Shown here: in pieces, positions 36,052 to 54,957 of the stretch | Layout of the letters: each line of letters starts with the position of its first letter | How positions within the stretch are numbered: the first letter of the stretch is position 1 | Assembly (NCBI RefSeq): GCF_037076525.1 | Contig: NZ_AP029018.1 | Coordinates: 2,435,001-2,499,000 of the forward strand | Length of the DNA stretch: 64,000 nucleotides | Origin: Selenomonas sp. TAMA-11512 | Lineage (GTDB): Bacteria; Bacillota; Negativicutes; Selenomonadales; Selenomonadaceae | Direction: 5' to 3' | Notes under the pieces: generated by a model | What the model was told of the DNA's origin: nothing | Database searches by the model: none | Seen by the model: the letters and a program-made list of their open reading frames with translations, nothing else | Position numbers and translations under genes: made by a program

Positions 36052-36214
36052 GGGAACCGCTGATAAAATGAAGTCTGTCAGATTGGTACAGATTTTTTCG
36101 TCCGAACAAGGTGGCAAACCGGATGCAGAGTGGTGCTCTGTGGAGGATTTGCCGCCGAAGTACGGGCAAAAAAGATGTGCCGAGATTATCGGGCTGAATT
36201 TATCAGCGGTTCCC
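36052..36214. repeat. Dispersed inverted-repeat element, complete form A
   Basis: 163 bp with perfect 16-bp terminal inverted repeats, GGGAACCGCTGATAAA and its complement. The right end reaches into the stop codon of the DapA-family gene. Just inside the left end is an ATG-led frame starting MKSVRLVQI that recurs in other copies but has no ribosome site. A further end-like sequence (ATCAGTGCTTCCC) abuts it at 36038-36050. Confidence 0.8.
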
Positions 36215-37110
36215 TAGCTCTGCAGGACCTCTTCCAACACCTTCCTGATCTTTGCATCCTCTTCCGGGAGCGTTTGCAGCCTGGGTGTCCTTGTCCACGT
36301 TTCAATGGGCAGCCCTTGCACTCTTACCGCCGCCTTGACCGACAGGGAGAACGAATCCGACACGGTATACAGGCACATGAGCTTTGAGATCTTCTCCGCA
36401 CAGGAGATGGCGATATCGAAGTCACGGCCTTCATACGCGTTGTGCATCTTGACGAAGAGCTCGGGGACGACGTTTGTCAGTCCGGATAGGACGCCGTCAC
36501 CGCCCGCAATGCGGTTCGGGATATAGTATTCGTCAAATCCGGATACGACGGAGAACTCCGGCCGCACCTTTCGTGCGGCATCGATGATGCGGCGCGTATG
36601 GCTGATGTTGTCCACGGTATCCTTGACGCCGATGATGTGCTCGTACCGTGCGGCGAGCGCCGCGATGTATTCCGGCGTAAGGTCTCCGCCGACGCAGATC
36701 GGAATGTTGTAGAGCTGGATCGGCATATCCACCGCCTCCGCAACCCTCCCGAAGTGCTCCATGACGCCTTTCTCAGTCGGCGGGAAGTAGTACGGTGCCA
36801 CGACATTGATGACATCCGCGCCCGCTTTCTCCGAGAACTGCGCGAGCTCCAGGGTTTCTTCCAGCTTCGTACTGCCGACGCCGACAATGATCTTTGTCCG
36901 ATGATTTGATGTCTTGACCGCGAGTTGAATCGCTTCTTTTTTATCCTCCACAGGAACGGAAAAGAATTCGCCCAGACTGCCGAACACGAGGACTCCATGT
37001 ATGCCGGCTGCAGCCAGATGATCCAAGTGCTTTTCGAAATTTGCCAGATCGATGCGCCCGTCTTCCTTGAACGGCGTTATAATCGGCGACATGATACCCT
37101 GAAATTTCAT
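36214..37110 (-). CDS. DapA-family aldolase/lyase (first copy)
   Basis: 298 residues of the DHDPS/NAL class I aldolase barrel. The Schiff-base lysine is in IIGVKDTVDN near residue 164 and the proton-relay tyrosine in IQLYNIPI near 136; GVLVFGSLGEFFSV is the pyruvate-carboxylate loop (usual GTTGE replaced by GSLGE). This suggests cleavage of a 2-keto-3-deoxy sugar acid to pyruvate and an aldehyde. Start at 37110 gives the best spacing to AAAGGA. It has its own promoter/operator and follows the TRAP/dehydrogenase genes. Confidence 0.88.
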   Translation of the reverse strand: MKFQGIMSPIITPFKEDGRIDLANFEKHLDHLAAAGIHGVLVFGSLGEFFSVPVEDKKEAIQLAVKTSNHRTKIIVGVGSTKLEETLELAQFSEKAGADVINVVAPYYFPPTEKGVMEHFGRVAEAVDMPIQLYNIPICVGGDLTPEYIAALAARYEHIIGVKDTVDNISHTRRIIDAARKVRPEFSVVSGFDEYYIPNRIAGGDGVLSGLTNVVPELFVKMHNAYEGRDFDIAISCAEKISKLMCLYTVSDSFSLSVKAAVRVQGLPIETWTRTPRLQTLPEEDAKIRKVLEEVLQS

Positions 37111-51571: not shown

Positions 51572-52750
51572 TTATCCTGCCGCCCGATAGATCTGCAGTG
51601 CGCGCGCCTGATCGACCTCTTTGACCGCCCGTCCGAAGCGGAATGTATCCTTTTTCGTCACGGCGCGCGCCATATCTTGCAGCGTCCCGTCGCTCTGCTT
51701 TCCGACGAGCTGCTCGATCGAAACGGGCATATCGATGGACGCGAAGAATGCCTCAAAGCGCGCGATCCCCCCGAGCGCTTTCTCCTCGTCCGTGCCGTCC
51801 TGTATCCCCCATACGAACTCGGCAAGGCGGACGAACCGCGGCAGCGCCGCGTCGTACGAGAGCCGTGCCCAGCTGCACCAGAGCGCGGACAGGGTAGCGC
51901 CGTGGCTTGCATCAAAGCGCGCCGAAAGCTCATGACCGAGCTTGTGTACGGGCATATCCCGCACTCTGCCGAGCCCCGTGAGATCGTTATGCGACAGACT
52001 GCCTGCCCACATGATCTCGCTCACAGCGTCGTAGTCGCCGGCGTCTCGGACGGCGCGCGGTCCGCACTCGATCACCGTGCGCAGGAGGGCCTCGGCGATG
52101 GCGTCTGTCAGCCTGTTTTCAGTATCTCTCACCGTATATCTCTCCAGCGTATGCATGATGATGTCCACGACGCCGTTCGCCATCTGCCATGGGGAAAGCG
52201 TCGATACGAGCTCCGGATTCATCAGGGCGAACAGCGGGCGATTGAAATTCGTACTGAGCCCGACCTTCTCACCGGTCTCCTCATTCGTCAGCACGGCAGA
52301 ATCGCTCATCTCGCTGCCTGCCGCCGGAATGGTCAGAATGACGCCCACCGGTGCGGACGCCGTCACATCCCGCCTGCGTGTCCAAAAATCCCACACATCC
52401 GCGTCCGGATGCGCCATACCGATCGCCACGGCTTTTGCCGTATCGATGACGCTGCCGCCCCCTACAGCCAGTATGAGGTCTGCGCGATAATCGACGGCCT
52501 CGCGCACCGCCTCACGCGCAAAGGCGAGCGTCGGATTCGCCTTGACCCCTCCCCGCGTCCGAAAATCGATCCCCGTGTCAGCCAGCAGTCGCTCTGCCCG
52601 CCCCAAGAGACCGCTTCTCTGCACGCTGCCGCCGCCGTACAGTATGAATGCGCGCCGCACACCGTGCGCGATGCATACGTCAGCCAGCTTCTCCTCCGCG
52701 CCTCTGCCGAAGAAAACCTCTGTCGGCGCATAATAATGAAAATTTTGCAT
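51572..52750 (-). CDS. Iron-containing alcohol dehydrogenase, YqhD/BDH type
   Basis: 392 residues. It opens MQNFHYYAPTEVFFGRGAE, the start typical of YqhD and butanol dehydrogenases, with the NADP loop YGGGSV and LAVGGGSVIDTAK near residue 95. Metal ligands lie in GVVDIIMHTLERY and in VHKLGHELSA/DASHG near residues 265-285. YqhD reduces many aldehydes including glycolaldehyde, so with the neighbouring dehydratase and aldolase it could make ethylene glycol from a pentonate. Start follows AAAGGAGC. Confidence 0.92.
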   Translation of the reverse strand: MQNFHYYAPTEVFFGRGAEEKLADVCIAHGVRRAFILYGGGSVQRSGLLGRAERLLADTGIDFRTRGGVKANPTLAFAREAVREAVDYRADLILAVGGGSVIDTAKAVAIGMAHPDADVWDFWTRRRDVTASAPVGVILTIPAAGSEMSDSAVLTNEETGEKVGLSTNFNRPLFALMNPELVSTLSPWQMANGVVDIIMHTLERYTVRDTENRLTDAIAEALLRTVIECGPRAVRDAGDYDAVSEIMWAGSLSHNDLTGLGRVRDMPVHKLGHELSARFDASHGATLSALWCSWARLSYDAALPRFVRLAEFVWGIQDGTDEEKALGGIARFEAFFASIDMPVSIEQLVGKQSDGTLQDMARAVTKKDTFRFGRAVKEVDQARALQIYRAAG

Positions 52751-52786: not shown

Positions 52787-52815
52787 ATTTTGGACAAGCG
52801 TTTTTTTCCTGTCAA
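52787..52815 (-). promoter_or_regulatory. Promoter of the iron alcohol dehydrogenase gene
   Basis: On the minus strand TTGACA (52815-52810), 17-bp spacer, CAAAAT (52792-52787). A possible plus-strand promoter (TTGCGG 52819-52824, TATTAT 52842-52847, 17-bp spacer) lies back to back with it and points to the RNA candidate. Confidence 0.65.
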
Positions 52816-52854
52816 GTCTTGCGGTGAAAAATTATTTATGTTATTATACGTACA

Positions 52855-53150
52855 AAGTAGGAGCCGCCTGAAATGTGCGCCAGTCTCCGATATGTCTAAC
52901 CTACAATTTTAAAAGGGAATCTGATTTGTCTCTGTGGATGTTGCATCGCCTCGAGCGAATAGCAGAAACAGCGCTTAAGATACCCACCTGCGAGCAGCAG
53001 GTCTAGGCATAGGAGGCAAACGGCATTTTGGACACCTGCTTTGAAAAGTAGTCGCTAGAGGGATTTGGGCTGGTGACATCTTTTCAATTGCTGTAGCGCC
53101 TGCAAGGCATTCCCCTCGCACACCGAGTGTCTTGCAGGCGTTATATTTTT
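52855..53150 (+). ncRNA. Probable non-coding RNA gene with own terminator
   Basis: A 300-bp unit with a plus-strand promoter candidate at 52819-52847, no open frame with a ribosome site, and a strong terminator at its end. The body folds on itself: GATGT (52940s) pairs with ACATC (53070s), CCTC with GAGG and GCGA with TCGC just inside, and the centre holds a CACCTGC-GAGCA-GCAGGT hairpin. A long, interrupted rod with an open centre is reminiscent of 6S RNA, and the 5' part (TTGTCTCTGTGGATGTTGCA) is loosely like 6S 5' ends. That identity is a guess. Confidence 0.5.
53097..53150 (+). terminator. Orphan intrinsic terminator
   Basis: CGCCTGCAAG (53097-53106) pairs with CTTGCAGGCG (53131-53140), enclosing a CTCG-CACAC-CGAG stem, then TTATATTTTT. 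No protein gene on this strand ends nearby; the last one stops at 51461 behind its own terminator. Confidence 0.85.
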
Positions 53151-53152
53151 AA

Positions 53153-53231
53153 GGAATACAGATAAATGAAGTCCGTTAGACGGGTGCAGATTTTGTCCGA
53201 TCAAAGCGGAGCTCCATTTATCAGCGCTTCC
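53153..53231. repeat. Dispersed inverted-repeat element, internally deleted form
   Basis: 79 bp from GGAATACAGATAAATGAAG to TTTATCAGCGCTTCC, with the conserved internal ATGAAGTCCGTTAGACGGGT. It begins directly after the orphan terminator. Confidence 0.75.
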
Positions 53232-53406
53232 TCCTTAGATTTAGTATGCGAAGAAAATGCTCTGTTCTTCCATGGAATATATAGCTCGAAAAATCGGCAT
53301 ATTTTGCCCGCGGCAAAAAGCTCCCATAAGAAGAGTTCCGAGAGAACCTATATATCGCTAAATCATCCGTACCCCTGATTACTATATTAAAGGAGAACTG
53401 CATATT

Positions 53407-54957
53407 ATGATAAAGCAGCCGCCGCATGACGCGGTCATCGCTATTATCCAGCGGCTCCAGAAAGGCACGAACAACTGGGTCAACCTGGCTTCCGTCGGCA
53501 AGCCGTTGAACGCTGCCGGCATCAGCTACGCGCCCAAACTCCGCACCTTTTTGGAATCCATCCCATCGCTCGACTTCCGTGACGAGGAGGCGCCAAAGGG
53601 CAAGCCGCCCGTTTCCTACGTCCGTCTGCACACGAAGACAGCCGCCCCCGCGCCTAAGAAGGCCGCACCGGCTCCCGCAAAGCGTCCGCTCAAGCAGCGC
53701 ACACCGGCAGCAGCGCCCGCCGCACCGGAGAAACCCGCATCGACAAAATCCGCGCCTTTGAAATCTATGCCTGCGAAATCCGCGCCGACGAAGCCGGTAC
53801 TCGCAAAGGCCGCACCTGCGAATTCTGCGCCCGCGAAATCTTCCCCGGCAAAGTCTGTGCCTGCGCCGCCTACATCGACAAAGCCGGCCGCGCGACGCGC
53901 GGCGGCTTCCGCGCCCCCTGCGGTCACCGTCTCGGGTTTTTCCCGCGATGTTGCCAACCCCACGGGCGAGCGCATCCCGTCTCCGGGCATGCGTCTCATC
54001 GATTGGGCGACGAATCTCACGGACTGCATCGACCGGCTCGCCGCGCGAGCCATGCCCGAGCGCTGGTCCTTCTATCCGGACGCGCCCGTCCCCGACTACT
54101 CCATCTTGAAGAGCTACCTGACGAATACGTTCCGCCGCCTGACCTTTGAGAAGAAGATCCGCATCGCGCAGGATCCGGATCGGTCGGCAAGCTCCGAAGA
54201 GTACGCCGCGTTCAATACGGGCCTTGTCGACCGCCGCTATTCCTACATCTACGCTCTTTTCAAGCGCAATACGCGAGATCCCGAAATCTATTGGTATCTC
54301 ATCGACTTCGTCGTCCCCGGCGAGGAGACGACGGGCAAGACCATGGTTCGCCTCTTCAATCCCCTGCCGGAAAAAGCCGACTACTTCCACGGGCAAATAC
54401 GCAACATCCTCTTTGACACGAGCGCGGGCGACCTGATCTGCGATTACCCGCACATCATCTCCGACCGCTCCGACCGCCTTCCCGTGGAATTCCTGAAGGA
54501 AAACTGCTCCGACGACTTTCTGACCGTCCGCGGCAAGCACATCGACCGCATTGCTCCCCTGCCGGCGAACGACACGCGAAAAAAAGCGTGGTTCTCCGCG
54601 CTCTCCAAAAACATCCTCGACAATCCGCGCGTATTCAACCGCCTCAAGAGCCGCATCGAGGACGCCGTCGCCCTCGCCGTGCAGCGCGCCGCGTGGAACT
54701 ACAAGGCGGCCGTCCCCATGTACTATCCGCCGAGGAACTGCGTCTGCTTCCTCCTGCCGCTTTCCCTGACGAGCGACGACGTCGTCGATCTCGCACTCGT
54801 CGCCGAGCCGCTCTCCTCCGGCTCCTATCAGGGACACACCATCCTGCTGCCCCGTCACGCGTACAACAACAGCCGCCTCATTGCCAATCCGGAAAGCGAC
54901 TGGCTCAACGCCCGATTCCTCTCCCATGCCGGCGATGAGGACGACGAAGAGGAATAG
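53407..54957 (+). CDS. DUF3825-like protein with possible LOTUS-like N-terminus and Pro/Ala/Lys linker
   Basis: 516 residues in three parts. Residues 1-60 form a small helical domain (AIIQRLQKGTNNWVNLASVG, then YAPKLRTFLESIP) that resembles an OST-HTH/LOTUS RNA-binding domain; this is tentative. Residues about 75-175 are a low-complexity Pro/Ala/Lys/Ser linker built from PAKSAP-like repeats. The rest looks like a DUF3825 domain, with MPERWSFYPDAPVPDY, SYLTNTFRRLTFEKKI and AAFNTGLVDRRYSYIYALF near the start and a Glu/Asp-rich tail. DUF3825 is thought to act in RNA biology. Soluble; start follows AAAGGAG. It has no operon partner. Confidence 0.75.
   Translation: MIKQPPHDAVIAIIQRLQKGTNNWVNLASVGKPLNAAGISYAPKLRTFLESIPSLDFRDEEAPKGKPPVSYVRLHTKTAAPAPKKAAPAPAKRPLKQRTPAAAPAAPEKPASTKSAPLKSMPAKSAPTKPVLAKAAPANSAPAKSSPAKSVPAPPTSTKPAARRAAASAPPAVTVSGFSRDVANPTGERIPSPGMRLIDWATNLTDCIDRLAARAMPERWSFYPDAPVPDYSILKSYLTNTFRRLTFEKKIRIAQDPDRSASSEEYAAFNTGLVDRRYSYIYALFKRNTRDPEIYWYLIDFVVPGEETTGKTMVRLFNPLPEKADYFHGQIRNILFDTSAGDLICDYPHIISDRSDRLPVEFLKENCSDDFLTVRGKHIDRIAPLPANDTRKKAWFSALSKNILDNPRVFNRLKSRIEDAVALAVQRAAWNYKAAVPMYYPPRNCVCFLLPLSLTSDDVVDLALVAEPLSSGSYQGHTILLPRHAYNNSRLIANPESDWLNARFLSHAGDEDDEEE
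53700..53905 (+). repeat. Degenerate tandem repeat inside the linker
   Basis: Imperfect 12-21-bp units of the GCCTGCGAAATCCGCGCC type, encoding repeated A-K-S-A-P / A-P-A-K blocks. Confidence 0.55.

Follow-up and report, generated by a model that had tools for sequence, protein, structure and literature searches.

A 6S RNA gene with a conserved box over its promoter in Selenomonas sp. TAMA-11512

In the window, i.e. the whole stretch of 64,000 nucleotides analysed here, the plus-strand locus at 52854-53045 is almost certainly the genome's single 6S RNA (SsrS-type) gene, which has its own promoter and encodes a rod of ~190 nt that would be released by pRNA synthesis. By imitating an open promoter, this well-known small RNA holds RNA polymerase. 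As a 6S gene the locus is ordinary and well supported, and the sole part that deserves follow-up is a box in its promoter. The features of the locus are as follows:

52809-52821, plus strand: promoter box, here CTGTCAAGTCTTG, family consensus TTGTCAAG(T/A)CTTG with the core palindrome CAAG-N-CTTG, overlapping the -35 element
52819-52824, plus strand: -35 element TTGCGG; the most frequent letters among relatives are TTGCA
52837-52849, plus strand: extended -10 region TATGTTATTATAC, hexamer TATTAT at 52842-52847
52854-53045, plus strand: 6S RNA, predicted mature form of ~189-192 nt, from the RF00013 match at 52862-53037 and covariation
52854-52861, plus strand: 5' strand of the closing stem, pairing with 53035-53042 (covariation, helix 1)
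52880-52904, plus strand: putative template of the pRNA, which would start opposite C52904 as 5'-GUAGGUUAGACAUAUCGGAGAC, from conservation of GUCUAACCUAC and by analogy (PMC8876501, PMC8414754)
52894-52898, plus strand: P2 strand GUCUA, with UAGGC at 53004-53008
52899-52914, plus strand: 5' strand of the central bubble
52915-52917, plus strand: GGG, with CCC at 52983-52985
52986-53002, plus strand: 3' central-bubble hairpin ACCUGC-GAGCA-GCAGGU (helix 7, 99% paired)
53041-53087, plus strand: terminator-like hairpin without U-tract at the position of the relatives' terminator (folding)
53092-53152, plus strand: strong intrinsic terminator, the second of the two hairpins, with a U-rich tail; full hairpin 53092-53145 (folding)

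The covariance-model search that an earlier note on this DNA had called for, run with Rfam release 15 on the whole window, returned RF00013 (6S RNA) on the plus strand with 62.3 bits (E 6e-10; gathering score 46.4), covering model positions 1-187 of 187, and nothing else at E up to 5. The host genome holds one copy; the host genus is represented by one sampled genome. Among 121 genomes of the same family, the own genome counted in, 113 have an RF00013 match, which attains the gathering score in 92 of the 121, and every good-quality genome (92/92) carries the gene in single copy. G120, one of the eight genomes without a match, has, at L108, the promoter box and behind it a stretch resembling the 5' end of 6S, which is probably a 6S gene overlooked by the model.

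The RNA shares the conserved fold of the 6S family. Its rod (52862-53037, 176 nt) has a folding energy of -55 kcal/mol (z -2.3, matched in stability by 4 of 200 shuffles), and an alignment of relatives, likewise suggested in the earlier note, revealed covarying stems. From 45 non-redundant sequences (<90% alike, L043 excluded as an outlier) RNAalifold recovered the rod of 6S RNA; of its 35 pairs, 17 have changed on both sides one or more times. When the 8-bp end pairing is included, 93.2% of cells are paired and 22 pairs have changed on both sides. The covariation score of 0.308 compares with 0.175 after shuffling (reached in 0 of 500), a control that ignores relatedness, and with 0.06-0.09 for slid versions, a control biased towards a structure that these very sequences yielded; neither is decisive alone and both are consistent with the Rfam match. 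The closing stem extends 8 bp past the ends of the Rfam model, with both-sided changes in five of eight pairs and 81% of cells paired, and in at least one clade (L020-like) its pairing is shifted by one base in the alignment used. A central bubble between two helical arms is present and supported by covariation; the GGG/CCC pairs and the 3' central-bubble hairpin are conserved in relatives, as is the putative pRNA template GUCUAACCUAC in the 5' strand of the bubble across the aligned sequences.

Another structured regulatory RNA that has only the rod shape in common with 6S RNA would fit the moderate RF00013 score (62 bits, likewise moderate for many relatives), the function of the RNA being a prediction. 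We consider it very improbable, given that the match is full-length and above the gathering score, that template and bubble are conserved, that a single copy is present in all good-quality relatives and that no second Rfam family appears at E up to 5. Of the two options raised earlier, 6S RNA turned out to be right, with a full-length RF00013 match, covarying stems and promoter, gene and terminators forming one unit; the other, an unknown regulatory RNA, is superfluous.

At the 3' end, two hairpins stand in tandem. The strong terminator placed at 53097-53150 in the earlier note is real (53097-53155 at -27.3 kcal/mol, z -5.5; none of 200 shuffles equally stable) and is the second of the two. 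The end-to-end pairing described there has to be amended: the rod fold exists, but the rod ends at ~53042 and the separate hairpin at 53041-53087 precedes the terminator. Most of the 14 loci folded downstream of 6S have a single terminator hairpin just past the body, and a T-rich tail usually follows it. The window and genus g30 (L016 and L019, its two sampled genomes) differ: their first hairpin lacks a T-tract and is extended in its apical part, and behind it stands a second hairpin that does have a T-tract. Judged by its position, the first hairpin would be the ancestral terminator minus its tail.

The gene lies between an iron-containing alcohol dehydrogenase (Fe-ADH) gene on the minus strand (51572-52750) and a gene for a DUF3825 protein on the plus strand, starting at 53407. 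No plausible plus-strand protein gene precedes the terminator, in line with the earlier note; the one ORF that enters the region on this strand lies antisense to the Fe-ADH gene. The DUF3825 protein (53407-54957) has a Lys/Ala/Pro-rich linker and no further Pfam match. Its leader (53238-53406, 170 nt) can fold with paired ATATATAG/CTATATAT arms; this fold is ordinary compared with shuffles (z -1.3) and the leader has no Rfam match. Adjoining the 6S terminator, at 53150-53237, is a shortened copy (~88 bp) of a MITE-like repeat of ~168 bp with inverted ends GGAAGCGCTGATAAA / TTTATCAGTGCTTCC, of which a full copy resides at 36053-36216. The host genome contains at least ~40 near-full-length copies and probably more, because 40 of 167 candidates were scored.

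The promoter proposed upstream is conserved among relatives. It combines the -35 element with a 17-nt spacer and a TG-extended -10 hexamer and would start transcription at ~52854; the mature 3' end is predicted, likewise from sequence, at ~53042-53045. A length near 200 nt and an own promoter and terminator, as expected for a 6S gene, are thus present in the sequence. A generic sigma-70 scan did not list this promoter on the plus strand because its -35 is weak. Upstream of 6S in 63 non-redundant loci, TTGTCAAGTCTTG, the 17-nt spacer and the extended -10 TATGNTATNAT are kept at near-fixed spacing, with column counts slightly diluted by L029, L039, L040 and L043, which were anchored on the wrong -10. 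Farther upstream than the box there is little conservation in these loci.

The box, TTGTCAAG(T/A)CTTG, is located immediately upstream of the 6S -35 and overlaps it. Its window form, TGTCAAGTCTTGC, occurs exactly once in the host genome. In 121 genomes we found 104 exact matches to TTGTCAAGWCTTG, as opposed to about three for the reversed pattern used as a control; 83 of the 104 are 38-53 nt upstream of an RF00013 match. The box together with a -10 at the set spacing occurs in 69 of 109 same-family genomes (tallied by hand from the table) versus 3 of 191 genomes from the rest of the class. Twenty box sites away from RF00013 were read (G049:C171 left out); most are within coding ORFs, several of these in ribosomal-protein genes, and one is L108, the probable 6S gene overlooked by the model. 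A pair of them in genus g30 (L102/L103) marks another promoter-like site, which is intergenic, precedes an ORF and shares both box and spacing with the 6S promoter; it is possibly a second target of the presumed regulator. Several 6S loci, e.g. L002/L003, L013/L014, L046, L053, L055 and L059, have no box, genera such as g10, g19, g24 and g28 are without it, and 6S transcription across the family is therefore not box-dependent. Sigma-54 and cre sites were considered for the box and dismissed by eye, as spacing and sequence do not fit. A literature text search for TTGTCAAG gave nothing on the box among its top results, and the papers retrieved on 6S RNA in these bacteria offered passing mentions only.

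Around a variable centre the core CAAG-N-CTTG forms a palindrome, the layout expected of a site for a dimeric DNA-binding protein, and the box is probably where a family-specific transcription factor acts to set 6S levels. Read backwards, it also contains TTGACA, which on the minus strand stands 17 nt away from CAAAAT (52815-52787; 10 of 12 promoter matches), with the Fe-ADH start at 52750 lying downstream, so that it could instead be the -35 of a divergent promoter. Among the 63 non-redundant loci, however, the corresponding -10 columns are weakly A-rich and lack a TANNNT pattern, the upstream neighbour ORFs vary among relatives, and conservation spans more than a -35 would and includes the palindromic core. 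Since no divergent -10 is conserved, we regard a divergent -35 as the less likely reading, indeed an improbable one, and retain the regulator site. That a family-specific factor binds CAAG-N-CTTG over the -35 with the 6S gene as practically its sole target, exerting dedicated control of RNA polymerase sequestration, is a bolder and rather doubtful proposal. To our knowledge, how 6S RNA expression is controlled has received little study beyond a few model bacteria, and the conserved, nearly 6S-exclusive box is a concrete bait for a regulator of it.

By analogy with the 6S family we infer transcription, processing, polymerase binding and pRNA synthesis for this RNA. The TG-extended sigma-70-type promoter would give a transcript of ~230-300 nt from ~52854, which would be trimmed to the ~190-nt rod with its central bubble. 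As a mimic of an open promoter, the rod would sequester the housekeeping RNA polymerase holoenzyme as growth slows, until the polymerase copies a pRNA beginning with GUAGGUUAGAC from the 5' strand of the bubble and the rod is released. The 13-bp box over the -35 would add a likely site for a family-specific factor setting 6S levels, a step less certain than the others. A pRNA start opposite C52904 (5'-GUAGGUUAGAC) is predicted because B. subtilis 6S-1 pRNA is G-initiated (PMC8876501) and because GG then falls at positions 4/5, in agreement with the 4/5-or-5/6 rule (PMC8414754); in E. coli, A. aeolicus and R. spheroides, whose pRNAs are verified, GG is reported at 4/5 (PMC8414754).

Compared with RF00013 6S/SsrS RNAs in general, the locus shares the full-length match, the rod, the central bubble, the closing and apical arms and a single gene with its own promoter and terminator; it differs in the closing stem 8 bp beyond the Rfam match and in the two tandem 3' hairpins. 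B. subtilis 6S-1 RNA (bsrA) is of similar length. Both have a small preformed 3' central-bubble hairpin and a G-start pRNA, predicted here (PMC8876501), whereas the GG is at predicted positions 4/5 here versus 5/6 in 6S-1 and one 6S gene was found in our genome, without a second copy. The 6S genes of lactic acid bacteria likewise have a conserved regulator-like site over the -35, where a cre site overlaps this element (PMC8414754); judged by eye, the box TTGTCAAGWCTTG is unlike the cre consensus, and on reading the flanking ORFs, again by eye, the typical rarA neighbourhood was not recognised. The cre site over the 6S -35 in lactic acid bacteria therefore provides a precedent for control at the position of the box.
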